Virus record (IMG/VR): IMGVR_UViG_3300008267_000164
Coordinates: 1-35,024 of that record
Strand: one strand, 5' to 3'
Length of the DNA: 35,024 nt
From: a virus
Positions 1 to 35,014 of the stretch are shown piece after piece (the stretch's first letter is position 1; each line of letters opens with the position of its first letter). The notes under the pieces were generated by a model. It had not been told where the DNA came from and did not search any database. It saw only the letters and a list, made by a program, of their open reading frames with translations. The position numbers were made by a program, and so were the translations under genes.

Positions 1-3000
1 AGCTAAATATCCTTTTATCTCCGATGAAACAGGTTGAATTTGGTATTGTTGCAATTTTCCGTTTTTGCCTACATAGGCTTTAACGGATTGCAAGTTTTTG
101 TCTATTACATATTTGGATGGTAATGTAAAACTAATACTTGCACCAGACCCACCGATTTTTCCATAACCATTTCCTGTAAATTGATATAAAACACTACCGT
201 TTGTATATGGTGATTGTCTTTCAATCGAAATATCCAATGTAAAATCGGCAGAATAATTTGAGTCAGTATTAGTAACAGTAACTGCATATAATCCCGCAAA
301 CATTTTATTTGTGCAATTTTCTGATGGTGTAGGAATATTAGGTGTCCATTTTAGATTATATTTATTATTTTCTTGACTTGTAGGCAATTCACATCCTGAT
401 GCTGGTATCGCATTGATTACTATTTTTGCCAATTGTTTAATGTTCTCTGTAAATTTAGAATCATTAATTTTAGTTATTATTGATTGTTTGAAATTACTAA
501 AAGTTACGGAGTTTATTGAGAATGTATCTATACCAAAAGGATCGGATGGGATAAATGGACCACCGCCGCCGACAATTTCAAATTCTGGATCATAACCTCC
601 TCGTTGTAAAGTATAACCATTTAATGTTGGATGTGTAGATTTTACTGTATTCCAACTGCCTGTTACCGATGGGTCATAATATTTTTTAAGATTATAAGAT
701 GAACTGGTAATATCAGAATTCAACTGACGTGTTAAATTATTTCCACTAAAATTATATATGTCGGTGAATATGTATATAAAATCTCCGATATTTAAGTTCG
801 CCGTTTGATAGACACTGATGTTAGTGCCGGGTGATGATGCTACTATCTTATACGTTCCAACCGCTGATGGTTTTGCATTTGACCCATTATATGTAATAGT
901 AGGATTTACAGAGTTTGTTATATCAATATCTCCGTTTCTGGATGGAATATAAATTTTATTTATCTTTACATCTTTTATCTCATCCGATACAGTTTTTACA
1001 TTCTTTAAATTCTCTGTTGTGTAAGGATATTCTTTGATGGAATTTACTTGTGTTAAATTATCAAATACAACGGTTGCGGTTGTAGGTTTAATTGTAACAG
1101 TTGCGGTTGATAAATACCCACTCTCTGAAGTTAGTCTGATCGGATCTTCTTTTGATATAAATATTTTATACGTATTCGCATCTAAAGGATAATACTGTAA
1201 TTCAGTTAACGGCTTCTGTGAGGGTTTTGTAACATTATAATCAGGATATATAACGGATGACACTTTTGTATAATTGACATATTTATCTGTTCTGTATAAT
1301 GTAGGATACGTTACTCCATTAACTATTTTGTTTGAAAACGCACTTCCGTAACTTATGTAGTAAGTATCATTTGGACTGAAATGAGAAGTTGCAACAAATG
1401 TAATTCCATTACCAACAAAATATGGGTAAGTGTCATACGTAACGGTCTGAGATTCAATACTAACAGATTTATCAACTTTTACAGTTATACTTGGTTGGGT
1501 CAAACTATATTTTGCTGAATCTGTTCCTATAATTGTATAATTGCTGCTCAAAGTAACTGAAAAACTACCCTCTGATGCGGATGATGTTATAGTTCCTGTT
1601 GAAGGTTTCGAATTAATAGTTACAATGTTACCGTCTACTATACCGATTAAATTTGCAGTTTGATTGTTTATATTTATCGTCGTTGAATCTCCAATTTTTA
1701 TATTATTTGCACTTACGCCTGTAATTTGTAGAGATTTTTGTGTAACCGTAAATGTGACTGTCGTCGAAACTGAAGCAAATCCGTTGATAGTAGGCATTGT
1801 TTCGGCCTTCACAGTAACCGTTCCCAAAGAAGCAGCAGTTTTACTAGGAACTATATCCAATTGGTTATTATTTAGTATTCTTGCTAAATTTCCACCGCCG
1901 GTTATAGTATATTTTATTGGAAACCCATTAATACTGTCTGTCGCACTGAGTGTTCTAAAATTAAAATCTCCGTATACTATATTGTTTATAGATGGGAAAT
2001 TAATAGAAGACGCTGCCGCGGTTATTGATAATGTGCCAGTTGATTTTCCTGTATATCTAGAATCTACAATAGTTGCCGTCACTGTATATGTTCCAACATT
2101 TTTAGCTTCATCGACATTTGATCCTACCGTGTTATATTGTAAAGAATAATTTAATCCGGCTGGAATTGTAGTAACCGAAAGAGTTTTTGGATTTCCATCA
2201 TATGCAAAAGTTGCCGAAGTAACTGTAATAGTTGCCGGTGCTTTAGTAATTTCCAATGTTCCTGTTTTAGTTCCACAATAAAAACTGTCTACTATTTCAC
2301 AATAAACAGAATATACACCAACTTCTGTCGGCGGAGTTTCAGATCCGTTATAAGTTACTTTTACTGTTAAGTTTGGTGGAAGTGTGGTAACTGAAACTGA
2401 TTTTGAAGATCCATCATAAGCATAGTTATTATTACTTATTTGAATAGTAGCATCTACGCAGTTAAAGTTTGCATTTTGTCTATCAACGAAAGTGCTTCCA
2501 CTTATGACTAAGTTTGTATTACCGTCATCTATTGCGGTGACGTGACAGTCTTCAAGTTCTTGGTTTATTTTTACACTGTAAGGAACAATTTTTTCACCAA
2601 ACTTATTTTGCGGAACAGAAAATACAGATATTTGTGAAGGCAAAGATCTATTGACTCCGCTTGTATCAAGCGATTCTAATCCAAATATTTGAGTAGGATT
2701 TTCACTTTCTTTATAATACAGATTTTTAACAGTATTATATACCAGTCTTTGATAACTATCATCGATGTTTACAGGATTGGTATCAGAGTTATAATATTTG
2801 CTATCTACTGTATAAAAGGTAGATCCGGTAATTTCTTTGCCAATTTTGAATCTTACAAAGTCTGGATCTTGTTGTTGATATGCAATTGCAGAGGAAAATG
2901 CAGAAGAAACCTCTGACATTTTTGTTCCATCACCATAGTCAAAAAACGTTAATAACAATGATCCACTTTCACTACCACTTTGCCAACTTATTAAATCTTC

Positions 3001-3084
3001 GAATCTTTGATTTTGTGCGTTCCAAGATTTATTGGCAACAAATGGTGTGTATCTGATATCATTTCTTTTTAACGATTTGATCAT
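1..3084 (-). CDS. Very large virion adhesin-like protein with MBG/Ig-like repeats (C-terminus beyond window)
   Basis: An open frame of 1028 codons starts at the ATG at 3082-3084 (MIKSLKRNDI) and stays open to base 1; I spot-checked the frame at several places along its length and found no stop. The first ~190 residues look like a virion-attachment region. After that come at least two tandem MBG-type Ig-like repeats (about residues 200-350), each with a YDG core and a VGTYTVTA-like or VGVYSVYC-like strand. More beta-rich repeats follow, then a segment near residue 900 ending GLYAVTVTNTDSNYSAD that resembles SprB/PKD-like Ig folds. MBG domains are best known from bacterial surface proteins, so a role in binding host surfaces or glycans is inferred. 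It is the last gene of the baseplate block and starts 1 base after the preceding gene ends. Confidence 0.8.
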   Translation of the reverse strand, partial: MIKSLKRNDIRYTPFVANKSWNAQNQRFEDLISWQSGSESGSLLLTFFDYGDGTKMSEVSSAFSSAIAYQQQDPDFVRFKIGKEITGSTFYTVDSKYYNSDTNPVNIDDSYQRLVYNTVKNLYYKESENPTQIFGLESLDTSGVNRSLPSQISVFSVPQNKFGEKIVPYSVKINQELEDCHVTAIDDGNTNLVISGSTFVDRQNANFNCVDATIQISNNNYAYDGSSKSVSVTTLPPNLTVKVTYNGSETPPTEVGVYSVYCEIVDSFYCGTKTGTLEITKAPATITVTSATFAYDGNPKTLSVTTIPAGLNYSLQYNTVGSNVDEAKNVGTYTVTATIVDSRYTGKSTGTLSITAAASSINFPSINNIVYGDFNFRTLSATDSINGFPIKYTITGGGNLARILNNNQLDIVPSKTAASLGTVTVKAETMPTINGFASVSTTVTFTVTQKSLQITGVSANNIKIGDSTTININNQTANLIGIVDGNIVTINSKPSTGTITSSASEGSFSVTLSSNYTIIGTDSAKYSLTQPSITVKVDKSVSIESQTVTYDTYPYFVGNGITFVATSHFSPNDTYYISYGSAFSNKIVNGVTYPTLYRTDKYVNYTKVSSVIYPDYNVTKPSQKPLTELQYYPLDANTYKIFISKEDPIRLTSESGYLSTATVTIKPTTATVVFDNLTQVNSIKEYPYTTENLKNVKTVSDEIKDVKINKIYIPSRNGDIDITNSVNPTITYNGSNAKPSAVGTYKIVASSPGTNISVYQTANLNIGDFIYIFTDIYNFSGNNLTRQLNSDITSSSYNLKKYYDPSVTGSWNTVKSTHPTLNGYTLQRGGYDPEFEIVGGGGPFIPSDPFGIDTFSINSVTFSNFKQSIITKINDSKFTENIKQLAKIVINAIPASGCELPTSQENNKYNLKWTPNIPTPSENCTNKMFAGLYAVTVTNTDSNYSADFTLDISIERQSPYTNGSVLYQFTGNGYGKIGGSGASISFTLPSKYVIDKNLQSVKAYVGKNGKLQQYQIQPVSSEIKGYLA

Positions 3085-4801: not shown

Positions 4802-7800
4802 TTATATATTGAAAATACTTTGACTTAAAGATAAACTTTGAGTTAAAATTGGAGAATAAGATAAAGAACTTGTCGTAGTAGATGAAGTTATCTCATAAGA
4901 ACTGATGATAGTAGTCAAGTCGGTATTACGAGATTTTACATATATTCTGTCTAAATAAACATTTCCAATTCCCGATGTAGTTTTACTTATAGTAACTGTA
5001 TTATCATTGGTATCTTTAAATGAATCGTCATTAAAATATAAAGGTTTATCGTTCAAATAGATTTGAAACTTTGAAAACGGATTATTTTTATAAATATAAT
5101 GTTGGAAAGGCAATACATTTGTTATTTGTAAATTAGAATCTTTTAATGGAATATATTGACTTCCAATTTGTGTAAGATCATTAGAACTTGATACGGGAAA
5201 TATCTTTTCTAATTTGAATTCTATAGGATTTGAAACCTTATCATTGCTATATATGTATTGAATTTCTTCAGATTTTACCAAATAACACATCTGTTTTTGT
5301 TCATAATCATAAAACGGTTTGTTATCCGGAACATATTGGCTCAAATAACTTATATTGTCATCTGAGGATATATATCCGTTGTTAAAATTATATTGTTTAA
5401 TTTCATTTCTACTATCATTTACTTCCAATATAGGAGAATAATCATCTGTAGATGTAATTTGACTATCAACATTATCATATAAGCTTATAGAACCGTTATA
5501 AGACGTAAGTTCTTCTTTGGATGCAAATCCAGTAGAAAATTTTGGTCTTTCTAAAACCGAAGGTTCTACTAAAATACCACCCAAAAATTTTGTTCTTGCC
5601 GGAATGATATTTCTAATTACATCAAATATGGAATTATCGATGTAATTTTTGTATAATGTTATAAATTCTTGATATAAAACTTGTTCACCGTCAAATTTAT
5701 AATAATTCTCTCTGAGAGTGTTTAGATCCTTATATGAACTTTGATTTAAGTTTCCAGGATCAGCAATCGAATCCATCACATTCAAATCGCCATAAAAGTT
5801 TAAAATATCATCATCTTTTGACTTGAATGGTGAAATATAAACTCCCAAAATGTTTGAATCCGGAGACATTACATTCAAATTTGTCGCTACACTTTGAACG
5901 GGAGAAGGTGCAGTTGTTAATTCTTGTTCAATTCTACGGATTTTATTGTTTTTTAATTTATTTGGACCGTATTGTGATAGTATTATGCTTTGTGGCAATT
6001 CAATTACTTCAAATTGATATGGGTATACCGATTGAGAATAGAAAGTGCAAGAGTTTGACTGTGTTACGGAATTGTAGGTAAAATTATAAGCATACCCATT
6101 TTGAGTTTCGTTGCGTTTAGTTTCTGGGAAGTCTGGATAAATTGGAACTACTGCAGAAGAACTTTGTAAATTTACAGGATAATCATAACTATACTTGAAA
6201 TTTAAGTAGTCCCAAGTCTTATCAATGTTTTCATTTCCATAAAAACCGTAATTTCTACAATATTCTGTAAAATCATAATCGGATATTGGGTTTTGAATAA
6301 GTTGTATTTTATCTAATAACCCTGTAAAAATATTAGAACTATTGTAATTTCCAAAACTTATAAACTCTTTACTAGAAAATAGTTCGTTATAGGTTCTGGT
6401 TAATACAATGCTTGATGAATGCGCAAACGTTTCTCTATCTGAATCATATGATTTAACAACTAAATCATATTTTGTAGGAACATAATTCTCATCATTGGAT
6501 GAATCGAGCAACGACGATGTTTCATTTCTTCTTAATAGAACATTGAAGAAAGAATCGTTGTTAAAAATTGGAACATTAGTAATTGATGTAGATTTATCTT
6601 GTATCTGAAATACAACATCTCCGTATTTATCTACCTTTCCTTTTTTAAGGTATATTTTCCAAGTATTAGATCCTTTATTAACCAATTCAACAACATTATT
6701 TGTCAAATAATTTTTGTTTAACTTGAATGTAAATTCTAAAGATTTAGAACCTGAATATGGAATCGATAAATATTCATTGTTCGAATTAAATTTAGTAAAA
6801 TAATATTTTGCATCATACAAGTATGATGTCTTTTTATTTTTAAATACATCATTGCTTCCGAATTCTCTTACAGTTAAAATGTTTAATGGTATTCCGTGAC
6901 ATGACAAAATTAAGTTTATACATTCTTGGGTTCCTTTTGTTTTATAAATTTGAGGAAGCGTATCAAGAATTCTTTTCCAGATAGATTCGGTTTTATCCTT
7001 GTATGATACTGTATTTGAAATATAAGATACAATCTCACTCTTGTTTGCGAAATCGGTAGAAGTATCCCAACCGAAAGTTTTTAACATGTAATATACAAAA
7101 TCACTAATATAAGTGTCGCTTGATTCCGTATTATTCAATATAGGGAAAGATTTTATATACTGGTATATATTATCGAAATGGTGTCCCGTCATTGACAAAA
7201 ATAACAAATAATCCGAGTTATTTTCATCATTCTTTATATTCTCAGGAGTGTTATTTACTAAACTGTCTATATTTTCTATATCGTATTCTTCTGCTGTCAA
7301 TATATAATTATAGTAGTTTGAATTAGGATCTTTTAAACTTCCTTCTATAAGAGATTGATTGTTATACAAATACGATTCATAACCATCAAATGAATTTAAA
7401 GTTTCGTTAATTTTATCATTATTCTTTTCGATTTGAGACGAATAAGAAGATGAAATTACAATGTTAGATGCGAATGATGCAGATACCGATAATTCTGATA
7501 TACTTCCGCTCAAGGAAGTTATTAACTCCAATTTGTTTTTGAACACTTTAGTTCTTATTGCGGCGGATGAAAATACCACAAATTCTGAAAAATTAGAATA
7601 GTCTACATTTAAAGTATTTAATTTTTTAATTACATTGATTTCCGATAAATCTCTATTCGATACATTGTCGCCTAAAGAAGAAACATTGTTTATCTTGTTT
7701 TTCTCGGCATTCTTCATCGGAATTGAAAAATCAGGACCCGATATCTTGAAATTTCGTGTGATTGTCTTATTAATTAATATTACATTTTGAACAATTGGTG

Positions 7801-11825: not shown

Positions 11826-13805
11826 TTAATTTACATTTCCTATTATGTCTATATCTGGATATTTGACCTCAAACACACATGGGTCCAATGAAGGATATAT
11901 TATTTTATTCTTTGTTGCGGCATTGATGTCATATTGATGTGGAGAATAATTTCCATCTTCGGATGTTAAATTATAAACACTCAATTGTGCTAGAGATTGA
12001 ACACCTTCAACTCTTGCGATTTCTAATTCTAATTGACTTAAATTAATTGGTTGGGAAAATCCCCATTTATCAATATCAAAAAACTCCTTGACTTTCTGAT
12101 TACAGTAATTTAAAACATCTCGTTTGTTATAATTGTTATAAATTACAATATTATACTTGACACCGACATTAATTATGTATCCGTCAATTATATTAATTCC
12201 GTCAGTGAGTAATCTGTATTTTGATAAGTATTGTTTTAAATTATAAGATAAAACATCATTTATCGGAGTTAAATGTTTTTGAGAATCGTATGATAACACA
12301 TACAAATTAATGGAGAATGGATTACTTATATCGTAATTAATCTTTCTAAAATAATTTTCGATATCATTTGTAACTCCTGTTGCATTATTGTTGTAATCTA
12401 CAAACCCACTAACATTTTTTTGCAAATTAAAATTTAAATCTGTATCAGATTTTACGTATGCCTTTGCTACACTTCCAAATCTGGAAGGCATGGATAATGA
12501 TCTAAGAACATAATCATCTTTAGTAACTGCTCTGTTTTGAGAAACAAATGTTGATGTTGCATTTTGACGTATTTCTTCAACACTTTCACTATCCTTCCCA
12601 CCAGTCGCTGCGATATAGTTATTAACTCTTAATGATTGCACCATCGTGTTAAATAAGTTTTGTTCGACTGGATTTAACGATGTAGAATCGTTTAACAATT
12701 CATAAGATTGTATTCTTATGATTTCATTTACATTACAGTTAGACAATAATCCTCCACCAACGATGTAGTTTATTGTTAAAACTGTATTTGAAGGTGATAC
12801 ACCATACGTATTTGTTTTTAAAAAATTGCTACTATCAAGTGAAATATCAATATTTTCAATATTAGACAATCCTATTCCAATAACATTTGAATTTGGATAT
12901 ACAATTTCATCTGAATTATTATCAATATTTGCACCAAACTCTAAATATGTTATGTTATTAGCCGTAATATTACGTGTAAATTTCTTAGAAGTCTTCAAAG
13001 ACTTCATGATCTTAGGAACTTCTGTTTTATATATATAAAAACTTCCATCGTTCGTCTCTATATTATCAATTTCAGTAAAAATTACGTCTTGTGCCAAATA
13101 ATCGACTTCATACCACTTGTTATTTTCAGAATCTCTTACATCAATAATTTCCAAAACATCAGTTTCATCAAATTCTACTTTATAAAACGGAGTAGCACTT
13201 CCAACGGAAACAGTTTTTGTAACTATTCTACCCGCAAACGCTTTTGCGGTTTTTCGTATTAAGAAAAATTGAGGGACGCCAAGAGAATCTCTTGAATATA
13301 CTGAAACTTCTCTTGGAGAAAACTTCGTATCGACTGAAAAATCTACTGGGTCACTAATAAGATATGATTGTCCAGATATATTTTCGAGTTGCATGTATTG
13401 TCGTAATGACAAAGCATACTTATCGTCTGGAATGTAGTTTCCATCACTATCAATCTTGGACGGAACCAATTGAAACAATTCTATTTCAGTTACCGCAGAC
13501 TTTGCCGCGTATGGTTTATAACCCAAATATTTAGCTAGAGTTAAAACATTCTTCCTTTCCTCTGCAAATGGAAGTAAACTTTCCTTGAATTGATAATCAA
13601 TATAGTAGGATAAAACATCGCCTACATACGCTGCCTGTTCAATAAACATTGTTCCAGGTGAAGCATCACTAAAATCTTGATAACTTCTCGGATAATAATT
13701 TTTAGCAAAATCAATCAAACCTTGCTTAAAGGAATTAAAATCCCTATTAAGATATCTGACATCTTTGTTTAGTGGTTGAAATGATTTTTGTATAATCTCT
13801 GGCAT
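11826..13805 (-). CDS. Baseplate wedge protein, T4 gp6-like (Baseplate J family)
   Basis: 659 residues, similar in length to T4 gp6 (660 aa). The N-terminus has the typical myovirus pattern of a disordered start followed by VRYLNRDFNSFKQGLIDFAK, NYYPRSYQDFSDASPGTMFI and a long YVGDVLSYYIDYQFKESLLP helix. The middle contains ESVEEIRQNATSTFVSQNRA followed by VTKDDYVLRSLSMP, the hallmark of Baseplate J/gp6 proteins. The C-terminal part (VGVKYNIVIYNNYN ... FGFSQPINLSQLELEIARV-like block) matches the rest of the family. gp6 forms the wedge ring that triggers sheath contraction. It follows gp25 after a 5-base gap, the order seen in many T4-like phages. Confidence 0.92.
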   Translation of the reverse strand: MPEIIQKSFQPLNKDVRYLNRDFNSFKQGLIDFAKNYYPRSYQDFSDASPGTMFIEQAAYVGDVLSYYIDYQFKESLLPFAEERKNVLTLAKYLGYKPYAAKSAVTEIELFQLVPSKIDSDGNYIPDDKYALSLRQYMQLENISGQSYLISDPVDFSVDTKFSPREVSVYSRDSLGVPQFFLIRKTAKAFAGRIVTKTVSVGSATPFYKVEFDETDVLEIIDVRDSENNKWYEVDYLAQDVIFTEIDNIETNDGSFYIYKTEVPKIMKSLKTSKKFTRNITANNITYLEFGANIDNNSDEIVYPNSNVIGIGLSNIENIDISLDSSNFLKTNTYGVSPSNTVLTINYIVGGGLLSNCNVNEIIRIQSYELLNDSTSLNPVEQNLFNTMVQSLRVNNYIAATGGKDSESVEEIRQNATSTFVSQNRAVTKDDYVLRSLSMPSRFGSVAKAYVKSDTDLNFNLQKNVSGFVDYNNNATGVTNDIENYFRKINYDISNPFSINLYVLSYDSQKHLTPINDVLSYNLKQYLSKYRLLTDGINIIDGYIINVGVKYNIVIYNNYNKRDVLNYCNQKVKEFFDIDKWGFSQPINLSQLELEIARVEGVQSLAQLSVYNLTSEDGNYSPHQYDINAATKNKIIYPSLDPCVFEVKYPDIDIIGNVN

Positions 13806-17598: not shown

Positions 17599-18474
17599 TT
17601 AGTATAAATTGGACTGTAAAGACCCTTTGTTTAGATATGCCTTTGTTATAATATTTTGATAGTGTTTCATTTTATTTATAACCTTGGTTATCTGTTGTGT
17701 CTTACATGAACTTATTTCACGAATATAAAGATATAATGACTTTTTATTGAACGAATCGATTCTTCCGCCATTTCTAAATAGTTCAATAACGGCATTCGCA
17801 ATTCCTAAGTCTCGTTCTTTGGTAAAAATCTTATGTATATTTTTTTCCCAATAATCTATCATAAGAGCCATAAACTCAGACATTTCGGTATTTTTATGAT
17901 ATGCATCTTCTACTTGTAAACATACTGTAGATTCATCGGGAGTATCCGAGATATTTACATGTTGATTGAACTTCTTATAATTTCCGTTGTTGTGGAAAAT
18001 TAAATAATTTTTGGCAACTATGCTGAAATAACTAAATGCTTTACCTTTACCCTTTTCAAATTTATGCATATTTGCTACCAAATGTGCAACCGTTTCTTTT
18101 TTGATCTCAGATGGACTATTATCAAAATAAGTAAATTTAAAGGTATTGAATATATTTTCAACCAATTTATCAAACGCATTTTTTATATGCATTTCATATA
18201 TATTATTACGAATATTTTGATCTTCTTCTTCGTTATATAATATAATATATTTTTCGGTATCATCTGTAAAATACATTTTACTTACAGATGCCTTTCTTTT
18301 CTTTCTTTTTTTAACAGGAGCAACTTCTTCTGAAATCGTAACTTCCTTTTCAGGAACAGAAACTTTTGGTTTCTTTATGGGATTCTTTTTGAGAATTGTT
18401 TTAATTTTTACTTTCTTTTTTGTAGTTGGTTTTACTACTTTTTTAACCTTTTTTAGTTTCTTAATTTTTTTCAT
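17599..18474 (-). CDS. gp55-like late-transcription sigma factor with Lys-rich N-terminus (291 aa)
   Basis: Residues ~85-200 (NAFDKLVENIFNTFKFTYFD ... ETVAHLVANMHKFEKGKGKA followed by FSYFSIVAKNYLIFHNN) match the pattern of T4 gp55 and related phage sigma factors: a helical core, a conserved D/E-x-x-V ... F-D/E-x-x-x-G-x-x-F-S-Y-F-x-x-I-A-x-x-x-x-x segment, here without an obvious region 4. This sigma directs host RNA polymerase to late phage promoters. Unlike T4 gp55 (185 aa), it begins with ~60 mostly Lys-rich residues (MKKIKKLKKVKKVV ... KKRKKRKAS). It overlaps the previous gene by 4 bases (ATGA) and sits directly upstream of the virion block. The gp55 assignment is by motif recognition only. 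Confidence 0.6.
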   Translation of the reverse strand: MKKIKKLKKVKKVVKPTTKKKVKIKTILKKNPIKKPKVSVPEKEVTISEEVAPVKKRKKRKASVSKMYFTDDTEKYIILYNEEEDQNIRNNIYEMHIKNAFDKLVENIFNTFKFTYFDNSPSEIKKETVAHLVANMHKFEKGKGKAFSYFSIVAKNYLIFHNNGNYKKFNQHVNISDTPDESTVCLQVEDAYHKNTEMSEFMALMIDYWEKNIHKIFTKERDLGIANAVIELFRNGGRIDSFNKKSLYLYIREISSCKTQQITKVINKMKHYQNIITKAYLNKGSLQSNLY

Positions 18475-18731
18475 TCAGTCCTCTTGTTTAATTTTTCAAT
18501 TAACTTTAGTATTTCAGAAAAAACAAAACCTACATCATCATCTTTTTGAAAAATTTGTCTATCATCAATTTTCTTTAACTGTTCTAATGTTGCACTTACA
18601 TCATTTTTGTATTCCTCTATCCAATTAGATAGTGTTTCAACACGGTCATATAATCTATCCACTGACATGCTAAAATATACATTTACGCATATAGATACTG
18701 TTAATAGTATCGTCAAAACTATTATTGTCAT
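18471..18731 (-). CDS. Small membrane-anchored coiled-coil protein (86 aa)
   Basis: Residues 3-22 (IIVLTILLTVSICVNVYFSM) form one transmembrane helix or uncleaved signal anchor. The rest is charged and helical (DRLYDRVETLSNWIEEYKND; FVFSEILKLIEKLNKRTE), likely a coiled coil facing the cytoplasm or periplasm. The stop overlaps the start of the sigma gene by 4 bases, so the two are probably translationally coupled. It is 3 bases downstream of the 46-residue gene. Family unknown; a spanin-like or membrane-tethering role is possible but unsupported. Confidence 0.5.
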   Translation of the reverse strand: MTIIVLTILLTVSICVNVYFSMSVDRLYDRVETLSNWIEEYKNDVSATLEQLKKIDDRQIFQKDDDVGFVFSEILKLIEKLNKRTE

Positions 18732-20021: not shown

Positions 20022-20504
20022 TTACTTAATCGTAACTTTTCTTATTTCAGGCATCGCAGGTTTTACCTTATTGAGAGTAATTAATAAAATACCATTTTCA
20101 AAAGTTGCTGATACGGTATCTTTATCAATATTTTCCCCTAAAGTAAATGATCTACGAAAACTAGAACGTTTCAATTCTCGTCTAATATATTTTCCACCTT
20201 GAGAATCTGTAACATTTTTACTTTTACCTCCACTGACTGTAAGCACATTTTGTTCCACTTCAACATTTACATCTTGTTTACTTAAACCTGGAACTTCGGC
20301 TTCTATAACAACTTTATCACTGTAATCAATAACGTCTACTCTTGGATAAGACCCCTTTTCAAAAAAGTCTACACCAAATTCTTGGCTGAAATTAGGGACG
20401 TTTGCTTTGAAAAATTCATCGAAAATTTGATCAAATGGAGTTAAAAACTCATCACGATGAACTGCACGAAATAACGGATTAGTTTGATATTTTACTACTG
20501 ACAT
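20022..20504 (-). CDS. Small heat shock protein, Hsp20/alpha-crystallin family (160 aa)
   Basis: The alpha-crystallin domain spans about residues 47-140 (YPRVDVIDYSDKVVIEAEVP ... FRRSFTLGENIDKD ... FENGILLITLNKVK), with the canonical A-x-x-x-N-G-L-like turn written as ATFENGILLITL, and a C-terminal VTIK tail in place of an I-x-I motif. Hsp20 is an ATP-independent holdase that keeps unfolding proteins soluble, and it is a frequent gene in T4-like cyanophages. One of only two starts in the window with a clear Shine-Dalgarno sequence (AAAGGAAAATATATG). Preceded by a structured leader and a sigma70-like promoter, and followed by a strong terminator, so it is a transcription unit of its own. Confidence 0.9.
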   Translation of the reverse strand: MSVVKYQTNPLFRAVHRDEFLTPFDQIFDEFFKANVPNFSQEFGVDFFEKGSYPRVDVIDYSDKVVIEAEVPGLSKQDVNVEVEQNVLTVSGGKSKNVTDSQGGKYIRRELKRSSFRRSFTLGENIDKDTVSATFENGILLITLNKVKPAMPEIRKVTIK

Positions 20505-27477: not shown

Positions 27478-28224
27478 TTAGGTCAGCTTTTTTATTTTTT
27501 TAATGATATAAGCAACTAATCCGCTTCTAACAACATCTTCTTCAGTGAATTTAAAGACATGTATACCATTATCTTTACTTTCTTGATCATCAAATAGATT
27601 CATGACCTTAGAAAAACCACTTTTACCGTTAATATCACTTTGATCTGGATCTCCTAGTATAAATACCCTACTAAACTCTCCTATTCTGGTTATTAATGTA
27701 ATTAATTCCTTTTGAGTCATATTTTGAGACTCGTCGGCAACAATAACCTTTGCATTCCAATTTAATCCTCTCAAAAATCCAATTGGAATACTATCAATAC
27801 GTTCTTCTTTTTCAAGGAAATCAATGTTGCTTTTAGGTAATAATTCTGACAACTTTTCTAAAAGGGGTTGTATATATGGTGACATTTTCTCATGGGCTTC
27901 ACCAGGCAAAAATCCTATCTTATTTTCGGAACTTTCAACTGCACTTCTTAGATATAATAAATCACTTACTTTCTTTAAATTCATCAATTTAAGAGCCGCA
28001 TATATAGACATATAAGTCTTACTTGTTCCGGCGGGGCCACTAACAAACATCATTTTCGTATTTTTATCTAACGCAACTTCTAAAAATTGTTTTTGTTTTT
28101 CTGTTAAATCTCTGTCAAATATCGATAACTCATGTTTTAATTTTGACCGTTGATATATTTTTGGACTAGTATCAATTGGAATTTCATTTGTGTTTTCTGG
28201 TTTTACTTTTTTATTTTTTTTCAT
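27478..28224 (-). CDS. phoH: PhoH-like ATPase (248 aa)
   Basis: A P-loop NTPase with Walker A GPAGTSKT (residues ~60-68, serine replacing the usual glycine) and Walker B VIVADESQ (~156-163). The typical PhoH motifs IGFLPGEAHEKMSPYIQPLL, GFLRGLNWNAKVI, MTQKELITLITRIGEFSRVF and LGDPDQSD are all present. Phage PhoH proteins are compact single-domain versions; host PhoH is usually longer or fused to a PIN domain. The function in infection is unsettled; RNA-related or phosphate-stress roles have been proposed. It overlaps the upstream 112-residue gene by 14 bases. A charged Lys-rich N-terminus precedes the domain. Confidence 0.9.
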   Translation of the reverse strand: MKKNKKVKPENTNEIPIDTSPKIYQRSKLKHELSIFDRDLTEKQKQFLEVALDKNTKMMFVSGPAGTSKTYMSIYAALKLMNLKKVSDLLYLRSAVESSENKIGFLPGEAHEKMSPYIQPLLEKLSELLPKSNIDFLEKEERIDSIPIGFLRGLNWNAKVIVADESQNMTQKELITLITRIGEFSRVFILGDPDQSDINGKSGFSKVMNLFDDQESKDNGIHVFKFTEEDVVRSGLVAYIIKKIKKLT

Positions 28225-30041: not shown

Positions 30042-30429
30042 TGGTGGACATGGAGGGAGTCGAACCCTCGTCTTTAATATGTTATCACAATCAGACTACG
30101 TGTGTATACATTTTTCAGTTGTTAAGAACGATTATATTAAATGTCAAAACTAATCGTTCTAAAGATTTACTGAATACTCAACCAACAACGCAAATCAAAT
30201 TGTTGATATAGCCTGATAGTTTACACCCAATATAATTATCAGACATCATTATATTGAATGTGCAGCCAAATTAGGCCGCTAGTGCTACCTTCGCATCGCG
30301 AGATACAAAGTCATAGCTGATTACATTATCTTCAGCAGTTAATGTTTTGATAGAAGTTTTAAGAGGCCAACTATCATCCTCTACACGCCTAACTGGTCAA
30401 ATTTATTAAATCGAAACCAGTACATGCCC
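30042..30429 (-). ncRNA. ssrA: tmRNA (ssrA)
   Basis: A 388-base RNA on the minus strand. The acceptor stem pairs GGGCATG (5' end, 30429) with CATGTCC, then A and a genomically encoded CCA (3' end 30042). The 5' region reads ACTGGTTTCGA, the tmRNA D-arm. A T-arm GAGGG-TTCGACT-CCCTC precedes the 3' end. A segment GTTGGCCTCTTAAAA closely matches E. coli tmRNA's GTTGGCCTCGTAAAAA and lies in a PK1-like pseudoknot (GATAG/CTATC and GAGG/CCTC). The tag frame starts at GCT (Ala) and ends VALAA-TAA. tmRNA rescues stalled ribosomes and marks the product for degradation. It is unusual in phages. Confidence 0.93.
30271..30336 (-). other. tmRNA tag-peptide reading frame
   Basis: Resume codon GCT at 30334-30336, stop TAA at 30271-30273. 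Encodes a 21-residue tag that begins AEDNVISYDF, continues VSRDAK, and ends VALAA. It is about twice the length of the E. coli tag, but the ALAA end needed by ClpXP-type proteases is kept. Position of the resume codon is set by alignment to E. coli's A-rich stretch after the PK1 pseudoknot. Confidence 0.8.
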
Positions 30430-30717: not shown

Positions 30718-30791
30718 TGGAGCGGGTAGCCGGAATCGAACCGGCACATCGACCTTGGCAAGGTTGCAGGCTACCACTACATCATACCCGC
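30718..30791 (-). tRNA. tRNA-Gly (GCC)
   Basis: 74-base cloverleaf on the minus strand. Acceptor GCGGGTA pairs with TACCCGC, followed by T and encoded CCA. Anticodon loop TTGCCAA gives anticodon GCC. T-arm GCCGG-TTCGATT-CCGGC is canonical. One A-C mismatch lies in the anticodon stem. Glycine is heavily used in the phage's fibre tips. Confidence 0.93.
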
Positions 30792-31146: not shown

Positions 31147-31896
31147 TTAGAAGGTCAAAGAAAGACCGGCAGTGTATTGAACTACACCGTCATAAGAATA
31201 CTTTTGACCAAGGTCAATGTTGTTATCAATATAATCAACACCAGCGAATGGAGACAACTTGTTCCAGAGAACAAATGCAACTCGGCCACCACCCTTGAAT
31301 GCTTGATAGTTTTCATAATGAGTAAACTCTGCATATGGGGTGAGAGTCAAGTCAAGCCAACTGGTCAATCCAAATGTAAATGGACGCTTACCACCAAAGG
31401 TAATACCTTGGTTGGTAAAATCAGCAGCAGCAAGATTTCCAAGATTCAAACCGGTAACATCATACGTATATCCAACATATGGTGTAACAACCTTGTTCAA
31501 TACCCACAACTTTTCGAGGGTAAGAGTTGCATTTACGGTATTACGATCTTGTCCATCAACAACATAATATCCAGTTCCAGCAGCAGCGTTGATCGCCAAC
31601 CAATCGGTCAAATTCAAAGTCTTATCCAAACCTGCTTGGAAAGCACTGAACTTTTCACCTGTGGTTTGTGCAGACAAATTGAAGTCAACATACTTGAATG
31701 GAGTTGATAGTGCGACACTGCCATAAGCAGCACCGGGACTCAACTGAAGACCAACTACATCGTATGTAGATTGATATCCAGCTTCAAACGTTACACTTGG
31801 CTTATCAGTTGGGAACAAAGATTCCACTGATGCCGCTTTGGCAGACATACCGAGAGCTGCCAATCCAATTAATACACTAATTAATAGTTTTTTCAT
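31147..31896 (-). CDS. Outer-membrane beta-barrel protein (249 aa)
   Basis: Residues 1-21 (MKKLLISVLIGLAALGMSAK, then A) are a classical Sec signal peptide with likely cleavage after AKA. The mature part alternates amphipathic strands (VTFEAGYQST, AAYGSVALSTPFKYVDFNLS, TPYVGYTYDVTG, LTLTPYAEFTHYEN) and ends with phenylalanine (VVQYTAGLSLTF), the usual outer-membrane barrel signal. One sampled 60-base line is about 45% G+C, versus about 28% in the nearby small-gene region, pointing to recent acquisition. It has its own Shine-Dalgarno (AAAAAAGGATAAAAACATG), promoter and terminator. Possible roles are altering the host surface, excluding other phages, or nutrient uptake; none is proved. Confidence 0.75.
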   Translation of the reverse strand: MKKLLISVLIGLAALGMSAKAASVESLFPTDKPSVTFEAGYQSTYDVVGLQLSPGAAYGSVALSTPFKYVDFNLSAQTTGEKFSAFQAGLDKTLNLTDWLAINAAAGTGYYVVDGQDRNTVNATLTLEKLWVLNKVVTPYVGYTYDVTGLNLGNLAAADFTNQGITFGGKRPFTFGLTSWLDLTLTPYAEFTHYENYQAFKGGGRVAFVLWNKLSPFAGVDYIDNNIDLGQKYSYDGVVQYTAGLSLTF

Positions 31897-32038: not shown

Positions 32039-32509
32039 ATGCCATACGAATATAATGCAAAAGTAACAGAAGTGGTTGATGGAGATACAGTTGTTATTGA
32101 TATCGACCTCGGATTTGATGTAATTTTTACCAAGCAAAAAGTAAGACTATTGGGTGTAGATACACCTGAAAGTCGCACGTCAGACAAAACAGAAAAAGTA
32201 TTTGGTTTGGCAAGCAAAGACTACGTTAAAAAATTTATAGAGTCTTGTCCTGATAAATATGTAATTATAAAAACACATGTAAGTGATGACGTAGATAGTA
32301 ATGGAAGAGAAAAGTTCGGAAGACTGCTCGGCGAAATTATACATCCAAATACTAAGAAAGTATTGAACGAAGAATTAATCAATAATGGTTATGCTGTTCG
32401 TTATATGGGTGAAAATAAAGATAAAGTAAAAGACCTCCACCTAAAAAATCGTAAACGACTTATAGATGAAGGTCTTGTTAAAATGTCTTATAAAGACGCT
32501 GGATTATAA
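32039..32509 (+). CDS. Thermonuclease / staphylococcal-nuclease-like protein (156 aa)
   Basis: The only plus-strand gene. SNase fold with catalytic residues matched to staphylococcal nuclease: D16, R36, D41, E44 and R95 (motifs VVDGDT, VRLLGVDTPESR, REKFGRLLGEI, corresponding to D21, R35, D40, E43, R87). It also has the NEELINNGYA and downstream charged helix typical of the family. No signal peptide, so it would act in the host cytoplasm unless exported otherwise. The likely role is degrading host or competitor DNA or RNA, or nucleotide scavenging. It ends exactly where the tyrosinase gene ends on the other strand (zero gap) and diverges from the OMP gene. Confidence 0.88.
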   Translation: MPYEYNAKVTEVVDGDTVVIDIDLGFDVIFTKQKVRLLGVDTPESRTSDKTEKVFGLASKDYVKKFIESCPDKYVIIKTHVSDDVDSNGREKFGRLLGEIIHPNTKKVLNEELINNGYAVRYMGENKDKVKDLHLKNRKRLIDEGLVKMSYKDAGL

Positions 32510-33994
32510 TTATCCTAGTGACATCCACTCAACATTTTTGATATACATTCTTACCCCATTCTTTGGTGGCACGAATGTTAACTCAACATTGCCCGTAGGT
32601 GGCGCAGTCATAAGTTTTAATGCTACACTAAACTTGTGCGTGGTCTTTGGATTAGTATCTTTTCGATGTTCACCATCCAACATACGAATACGTCCCACTT
32701 TAGTTTGCACACCATTTGCATCTTTGATATAAATATCAATTTGATATTTTCCTGTATAAGTAATCGGTCCCATCGTCACATCTAATAATGCAGTTTGTGA
32801 TTTCAAAATATCATCTACTGATTTTACATTTACAACAACTGGTTTATTAGTGATTTCTTGATTGATTGTCGATTTTACAGAACGTGTTACTTTCTTAGGT
32901 TTTGTTGATGTAAGTAACCCAGAATAGTTACTATCACCATAACTAATATTACCACTTATACCCGTCATAATATCTTTAACACTAACAGTAACCCAAGAAC
33001 CATCAATATCAGTATATTGATATGTTTGCTGACCCCAAGGACCGTCCAAATCTGGCATTGGGTTCTTATACATTGAGAAAATACGATCAATGTTACCATG
33101 ATGCATGTAGAAAATAGGATCTAAAGCTGCATATCGTAGTGTTCCCATAGAACGATTTTTACCAATACGAGTTCCAACCCAATCATGTCCATCGTTATGT
33201 GGACCTTGTTCAAGTAATCCTTGGCCTGTAGTTCTATCAATAGTTGATCCACCGCCAAATTGTTCAAATGGAGCTGCCAAAATCTGTCCAATATATTCTG
33301 GGCTCATATAATATAATGTTTCTTTTACGTGATTTTGAGAATCAACAGTAAGTTCATTATTTGGGTCCATCGTTGGTTTCAAAATTGTTGGTCCACGATT
33401 ACCATCGTATAATGCAGTATTATCAAATCCAAGATTATCTGCATTTACCATATCTTCTTGGGTAATGTCATATCCAAATAATGGACTTGCCAAACCAGCT
33501 TGAACACGCAAATGAGTATTAGGAATCTCCTTATGAGTCATCCAATCCCAATATGGATATGCAAATTTAGAACCGTCAACTTTAAATTGAGTGGTCAAAA
33601 TATTAGCTAGAATACGTTCCAAGAAATAAATATAACCTCTATGCCACGGAAGAAAATACCAACTCCAATGAACTTGCGGATTACCTTCACTGGCTTCTGT
33701 GCAGTGATGCGCATGTTGTCTGCCATAGTTTTCCCAATGTAGAGGACTGTCAGTAGGTATATCATTTCTCATATAACCTACAGCTTTACATAAATTACGC
33801 AACTCGTCATCCGTCAAATCATAAAAACTTTTTCTAATTCTTTTCGGTTCGTTGTTGAGTGTAAATTTCTTAATTGATTTTGCAGGAGCACATAATGGAT
33901 CACTAACTATTTTTTTAGGTGATGCATTTAAATTTAATCCAATTGTGCTTGTAATTAAACCTGATTTTAAAAACGTTCTTCTTGTTGTATTCAT
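32510..33994 (-). CDS. Tat-exported tyrosinase / polyphenol oxidase (494 aa)
   Basis: Start chosen at ATG 33992-33994 because TTRRTFLKSG directly follows, a twin-arginine (Tat) signal with a hydrophobic stretch after it; a longer frame from a TTG at 34022 is unlikely. CuA site: HAHHC (~96-100) and PWHRGY (~116). CuB site: PHNDGHDWVG (~265) and DPIFYMHHGNIDRIF (~293-307). These match the two type-3 copper centres of tyrosinases. The C-terminal ~110 residues (DVTMGPITYTGKYQI ... IRMLDGEHRKD) resemble the polyphenol oxidase C-terminal domain. The enzyme oxidises phenols to quinones, and Tat export puts it in the periplasm. Locally about 40% G+C by one sampled line, above the phage background. 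A phage tyrosinase is very unusual. Confidence 0.85.
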   Translation of the reverse strand: MNTTRRTFLKSGLITSTIGLNLNASPKKIVSDPLCAPAKSIKKFTLNNEPKRIRKSFYDLTDDELRNLCKAVGYMRNDIPTDSPLHWENYGRQHAHHCTEASEGNPQVHWSWYFLPWHRGYIYFLERILANILTTQFKVDGSKFAYPYWDWMTHKEIPNTHLRVQAGLASPLFGYDITQEDMVNADNLGFDNTALYDGNRGPTILKPTMDPNNELTVDSQNHVKETLYYMSPEYIGQILAAPFEQFGGGSTIDRTTGQGLLEQGPHNDGHDWVGTRIGKNRSMGTLRYAALDPIFYMHHGNIDRIFSMYKNPMPDLDGPWGQQTYQYTDIDGSWVTVSVKDIMTGISGNISYGDSNYSGLLTSTKPKKVTRSVKSTINQEITNKPVVVNVKSVDDILKSQTALLDVTMGPITYTGKYQIDIYIKDANGVQTKVGRIRMLDGEHRKDTNPKTTHKFSVALKLMTAPPTGNVELTFVPPKNGVRMYIKNVEWMSLG

Positions 33995-33998
33995 AATT

Positions 33999-34163
33999 TT
34001 ATTTTTCTTTATTAACCCATCCAATTCTATGTTTATTAATCCAATCCGTTAATGCTTGTTCAAAACCTATGTCTTTACCTACCTTTTCACTCTCAATCCA
34101 TTTGTGTTTAAGTATTTCACTTTTCATATCCATAAATTTTGAATAAAGACATTTCTTAGACAT
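33999..34163 (-). CDS. Small phage protein near tyrosinase (54 aa)
   Basis: Start chosen at ATG 34161-34163 (MSKKCLYSKFMDMKSEILKH); a TTG-started longer version (34181) is less likely. The core ILKHKWIESEKVGKDIGFEQ followed by ALTDWINKHRIGW resembles small phage proteins with K-H-K-W-x-E-S-E-x-x-G-x-D-I-G ... A-x-x-D-W-x-x-K-H-R. Function unknown. Its stop is 4 bases before the tyrosinase start, so they are probably co-transcribed. Confidence 0.5.
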   Translation of the reverse strand: MSKKCLYSKFMDMKSEILKHKWIESEKVGKDIGFEQALTDWINKHRIGWVNKEK

Positions 34164-34186
34164 AAAAATACATATCATCAAAAATT

Positions 34187-34939: not shown

Positions 34940-35014
34940 TGGAGTCCCGTGTTGGATTTGCACCAACCTAATGCGATTTTGCAGATCGCCGCCTAACTAC
35001 TCGACCAACGAGAC
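34940..35014 (-). tRNA. tRNA-Cys (GCA)
   Basis: 75-base cloverleaf on the minus strand. Acceptor GTCTCGT pairs with ACGGGAC (one G-U), followed by T and encoded CCA. Anticodon stem GCGAT/ATCGC encloses loop CTGCAAA with anticodon GCA. T-arm TTGGT/ATCCAA-type is present. Eight bases past its 5' end the window ends with TGG, which could be the CCA of another tRNA just outside. Confidence 0.92.

Follow-up and report, generated by a model that had tools for sequence, protein, structure and literature searches.

We studied a stretch of viral DNA of 35,024 bases, an IMG/VR record without end repeats (the whole of it is called the window here), that carries a gene for a tyrosinase, i.e., a copper enzyme oxidising phenols. 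The tyrosinase/polyphenol oxidase gene lies at 32510..33994 in the negative strand, from its start codon (ATG) at 33994 to the stop codon at 32510, exactly where an earlier note on this DNA had placed it, and encodes 494 aa. It converges with the gene of an SNase-like endonuclease at 32039..32509 in the positive strand (PF00565, 7e-13; phrog_452, 4e-38), a conserved neighbour of the tyrosinase that is 91% identical in contig L187 (see below). A small ORF directly upstream, at 33999..34181 in the negative strand, is 70% identical over 57 aa to its L187 counterpart and is likely co-transcribed with the tyrosinase gene. Beyond the endonuclease, positions 31147..31896 (negative strand) encode a predicted exported beta-barrel protein, 48% identical in contig L189 and 86% in L209, which AlphaFold2 modelled with about 12 strands at a pLDDT of only 63.

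Judged from its genes, the virus belongs to the T4-type myophages and has Flavobacterium phage immuto as a distant relative. The marker used to place it was a gp6-like baseplate wedge protein (11826..13805, negative strand; phrog_219, 7e-14), which showed 37-42% identity to its counterparts in immuto and in Microcystis phage Mel-JY01. The window also encodes a gp25-like baseplate wedge protein, serine-rich repeat proteins and a PhoH-like ATPase (27478..28224, negative strand; PF02562, 6e-49); the latter shares a contig with the tyrosinase in L187 and L189 too (73-77% identity). Shine-Dalgarno motifs were scarce, found at 5 of 27 starts vs a 7% background. From this scarcity and the relation to immuto, both weak evidence, the host is probably a diderm and perhaps a member of the Bacteroidota. 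INPHARED held no near-identical phage DNA for the window.

Other features of the window were a large tail-region protein (1-3084, negative strand) cut by the window end and containing three MBG_3 domain stretches, and an Hsp20-type small heat-shock gene among the structural genes (20022-20504, negative strand; phrog_432; 86% identity in L209). A tmRNA, a tRNA-Gly and a tRNA-Cys were located at 30042-30429, 30718-30791 and 34940-35014, respectively, all in the negative strand. The tmRNA (Rfam RF00023, 131 bits) has the tag AEDNVISYDFVSRDAKVALAA; in Bacteroidota and Verrucomicrobiota genomes only its 3' end and short pieces found matches, and other phages likewise matched short parts only.

Active site, fold and export signal

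The protein consists of a putative Tat signal (residues ~1-28), a di-copper core (~42-360) and a C-terminal beta-domain (~365-494). The HMM search against PF00264 that the earlier note had proposed gave a match with an E value of 3.6e-34 (119.5 bits, curated cut-off 22.6), and a search of the genome located the core as matched by this model at 33065..33736 in the negative strand (E 9e-37). The copper ligands, numbered from the ATG, are H94, H109 and H118 for CuA and H266, H270 and H299 for CuB. All six were invariant in the ten aligned virus proteins (10/10), as were C98, E262, N267, D271 and H298, so that the loss of ligands on alignment, which the earlier note had named as fatal to its assignment, did not occur; the histidine motifs it had quoted were all present. 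Residue roles were assigned from published work (PMC10526336, PMC11608171), those at CuA from the alignment with grape polyphenol oxidase (PPO): C98 corresponds to the thioether cysteine, E262 to the water-keeper, N267 and D271 to the residues after HisB1 and HisB2, and H298 to the seventh histidine. By the PF00264 match and these residues the ORF is identified as a type-3 copper tyrosinase in an apparently intact gene. Both N267 and E262 would suit an enzyme with tyrosinase activity, the residue at HisB1+1 not being decisive for monophenolase vs diphenolase activity (PMC11608171).

An AlphaFold2 model built on an alignment of 31 proteins reached a mean pLDDT of 82 and a pTM of 0.86. Its best structural matches were latent plant PPOs, aligned over residues 42-494 including the C-terminal domain (Foldseek E ~3e-22; Z 28-30); latent apple PPO had a Z of 29.8 over those residues, and 6els and 4z12 likewise aligned through residue 494. 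The tyrosinases of Ralstonia, Hahella and Verrucomicrobium spinosum came next (Z 26-27), and the core fold gave Z values of 20-30 against solved tyrosinases and PPOs. At E 0.01 the protein matched neither of the plant PPO domains PF12142 and PF12143 but PF00264 alone. The polyphenol-oxidase-type C-terminal domain that had been claimed from the letters was therefore recovered by fold but not by Pfam, and the modelled protein resembles latent PPOs while falling outside the plant PPO sequence family. In the model the C-terminal domain, of PPO type, packs on the core as a shield; since the sequence of this part is poorly conserved across the family, the shielding may differ among relatives.

The N-terminus carries the twin-arginine motif TRRTFLK, and an RRxF motif is kept near the N-terminus in all ten aligned virus proteins of lineage I (see below). 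The tyrosinase is thus a well-supported putative Tat substrate, as the earlier note had proposed.

Relatives in viruses and bacteria

A scan of IMG/VR with a degenerate DNA pattern that covers the CuB motif (DPxFxxHHxNxD), together with an alignment search, found relatives of the window tyrosinase on 19 further contigs, 49-73% identical where full-length, which we call lineage I; a pattern scan of IMG/VR based on the single protein had returned nothing, the peptides chosen being variable. The barrel, endonuclease, tyrosinase and small upstream ORF occur in L187 in the same order as in the window, and L189, whose gp6 is at 78%, likewise keeps barrel and tyrosinase together. Contig G018 (297 kb) holds a gp23 capsid gene, a terminase gene, gp6 at 49% and the tyrosinase, and G014 (109 kb) holds gp23 and terminase genes alongside the tyrosinase. 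The tyrosinase lies in real phage genomes. Among related phages it is an accessory gene: in L209 (G815) the barrel is kept but flanked by other genes, without an adjacent tyrosinase, whereas L208 (G830) has a wholly different gene set there. One of 42 gp6-bearing contigs carried the tyrosinase, most of these contigs ending short of the locus. The ratio dN/dS was 0.13 for the pair L004/L008 (at a dS of 0.78) and 0.09 for L020/L203, remoter pairs being near saturation; values of about 0.1 indicate that the lineage I gene is under purifying selection.

Two explanations that would deprive the gene of any meaning for the phage can be weighed at this point. A chimeric assembly, about which the earlier note had cautioned, or a bacterial contig misclassified as viral is conceivable for an environmental IMG/VR fragment lacking end repeats; it is scarcely credible here because the gene order recurs in other contigs and the tyrosinase is found on the same contigs as capsid and terminase genes, and the GC3 of the tyrosinase (0.218) is the phage's own (0.17-0.22 in the surrounding genes). 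The gene might otherwise be a bacterial one acquired recently and without a role for the phage, as its sporadic distribution among related phages would allow. Against this stand the low dN/dS of both pairs, a base composition like that of the phage, and a clade that is old, diverse and almost wholly viral, and we regard such a passenger as very unlikely.

Note that a fixed partnership of barrel and tyrosinase was rejected, given the L209 barrel without an adjacent tyrosinase, and a pattern scan of IMG/VR found the window-type barrel on only two other contigs. Membership of the TorF/Gcw_chp family was also rejected, because no Pfam or NCBIfam model matched the protein of the window; it was only in L018 that a distant barrel scored just above the Pfam cut-off for Gcw_chp (TorF porin). 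Exported barrel-like proteins within a few kb of tyrosinases recur (window, L018, L016, L022, L187 and L189), and L209 has such a protein as well. Beyond the barrel of L209 there is an ORF of 124 aa (18107-18481, negative strand) with a Tat-like start, MNKLNRKGFFSTLFGG, and for this reason the locus may be one where exported proteins are exchanged for one another.

Cellular relatives were sought in 84,980 species genomes with two peptide patterns, by which divergent relatives could be missed. The closest gene, L106, came from a Verrucomicrobia MAG and showed 47% identity along almost the entire protein; other matches were at about 31% or less, short cores of up to 35% excepted. The L106 tyrosinase (5538-7508, positive strand) lies on a contig of 63% GC (VHCG01000074.1) whose neighbouring genes look bacterial by our own reading, and at 1e-20 the only match among 388 Verrucomicrobiota and 395 Bacteroidota genomes was the L106 genome. 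No plasmid relative was found. In the trees the lineage I viruses grouped with L106 with full support, and the best tree had L106 inside the virus clade, which perhaps reflects a virus-to-bacterium transfer; an all-virus clade without L106 was not rejected (p-AU 0.137). The phylogeny that had been suggested as a way to the donor lineage names no cellular donor, since its best tree nests the closest cellular gene among the viruses.

A second group of virus tyrosinases, lineage II, was first represented by pattern matches in L003, L010, L013 and L014, about 25% identical to the window tyrosinase, and an alignment search placed it on 18 contigs (L220-L237), some of 253-476 kb. The tyrosinase contigs G020 and G024 have terminase and gp23 genes, and G023 a terminase gene. 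The N-termini look, by our own reading, like Sec or lipoprotein signals. Relatives were present in 4 of 335 Bacteroidota genomes (E ~1e-106 to 1e-116), and in the tree the lineage II viruses formed one clade, sister to the Bacteroidota genes. Lineages I and II fall in separate parts of the tree, whose deep branches are weak, and this suggests an independent uptake of the two. The Verrucomicrobia gene within lineage I and the Bacteroidota genes next to lineage II offer cases in which the passage of genes between viruses and bacteria can be followed. An isolated third virus tyrosinase on a long branch, with a signal-like N-terminus, was seen in L006 (2982-4412, negative strand), between ORFs resembling phage structural genes.

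Proposed role

We propose, as a probable reading, that the gene is an auxiliary metabolic gene of a large T4-type phage for a latent, Tat-exported tyrosinase making o-quinones; its benefit may be the detoxification of phenolics and the relief of copper-catechol stress. In the infected cell of a diderm host, the protein would be synthesised and folded in the cytoplasm, presumably be loaded with copper, and reach the periplasm through the host Tat system. Until it is displaced or cut off, the C-terminal beta-domain would keep the di-copper site covered; that latency is relieved by removal of the domain we infer from the V. spinosum and plant enzymes. The active enzyme would then oxidise phenols with O2 to o-quinones, both within the periplasm and, once the cell has lysed, outside it. 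The likeliest benefit would be that toxic phenolics and copper-catechol stress are removed while the infected cell matures.

In the order of likelihood that we would assign to the possible benefits, detoxification comes first, tanning of the envelope second, and effects of pigment or oxygen third. Tanning would mean that the enzyme in the periplasm oxidises exposed tyrosines as well as phenols to quinones and that these cross-link envelope proteins, barring a second phage or delaying lysis. The Tat motifs of lineage I and the Sec/lipoprotein-like N-termini of lineage II both point to the envelope, and an exported barrel protein adjoins the tyrosinase in several contigs, but the quinones could harm the phage's own release, and we think this use unlikely. 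A bolder version holds that at least two independent uptakes, with different export routes, occurred because quinone tanning bars competing phages, i.e., a chemical superinfection exclusion; we give it a distinctly smaller chance, and if true it would be a form of exclusion not yet known. Melanin-like products might instead shield the cell or the virions from light or reactive oxygen, or oxygen might be lowered locally. Such effects follow from known tyrosinase chemistry, with no particular pointer in the sequence; no other pigment gene was recognised in the window, and they seem to us similarly improbable. Detoxification is our preferred reading. Whatever their benefit, virus tyrosinases would extend the possible effects of phages on infected cells by copper-dependent phenol oxidation, apparently placed beyond the cytoplasm. 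Viruses could thereby be tied to the chemistry of phenols and humic carbon, for which a part played by cellular tyrosinases has been proposed (PMC9454253).

Comparison with known systems

Like phage auxiliary metabolic genes in general, the tyrosinase gene encodes a metabolic enzyme, is sporadic among relatives and is under purifying selection. It differs from the known ones in its absence from the phage databases searched: PHROGs v4 gave no match for six virus tyrosinases of both lineages, INPHARED none for one member of each lineage, and a fold search of BFVD gave weak partial matches only, with no tyrosinase among the matches listed. In the open literature, a scope that leaves subscription papers and preprints mostly outside, no phage or virus tyrosinase was found; papers that bring viruses together with polyphenol oxidase or tyrosinase turned out to be irrelevant. 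The suggestion of the earlier note that this is a new kind of auxiliary metabolic gene is supported, and the gene is apparently such a kind. It is not a lone example: such genes occur in two or more virus lineages, on about 38 contigs besides the window.

Among cellular enzymes, the tyrosinases of Streptomyces and Bacillus (1WX2, 3NM8) share the di-copper core with the window model at Z 20-21; the former needs a separate caddie protein, and the latter has neither caddie nor C-terminal extension (PMC9454253). The L106 protein resembles the window protein in its twin-arginine N-terminus and differs in a longer C-terminal end. Latent plant PPOs (MdPPO1, 6ELS; aurone synthase, 4Z11-4Z14) match residues 42-494 at Z 28-30 with 24% identity. 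They have a plastid peptide, whereas the window protein has a bacterial Tat signal and undetected PF12142/PF12143 domains, and the residue after HisB1 is N in the window protein and A in MdPPO1 (PMC11608171).

The tyrosinase of V. spinosum (vsTyr; PDB 8BBQ/8BBR) is made as a pre-pro-enzyme, in which a Tat signal peptide is combined with a C-terminal extension holding the enzyme inactive (PMC10526336), and it serves as the model for the latency and export proposed here. As in the window protein, Tat signal, di-copper core and C-terminal extension are joined in one chain, and both have a glutamate water keeper and an Asn after HisB1 (PMC10526336); its core matches the window model at Z 26 with 29-30% identity. 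The thioether cysteine, however, is at the plant position (HxxxC) in the window protein, whereas vsTyr links C84 to H86, and the residue after HisB2 is Asp in the former and Asn in the latter. The window protein is, in addition, encoded by a phage, and its chain as a whole fits plant PPO better than vsTyr.
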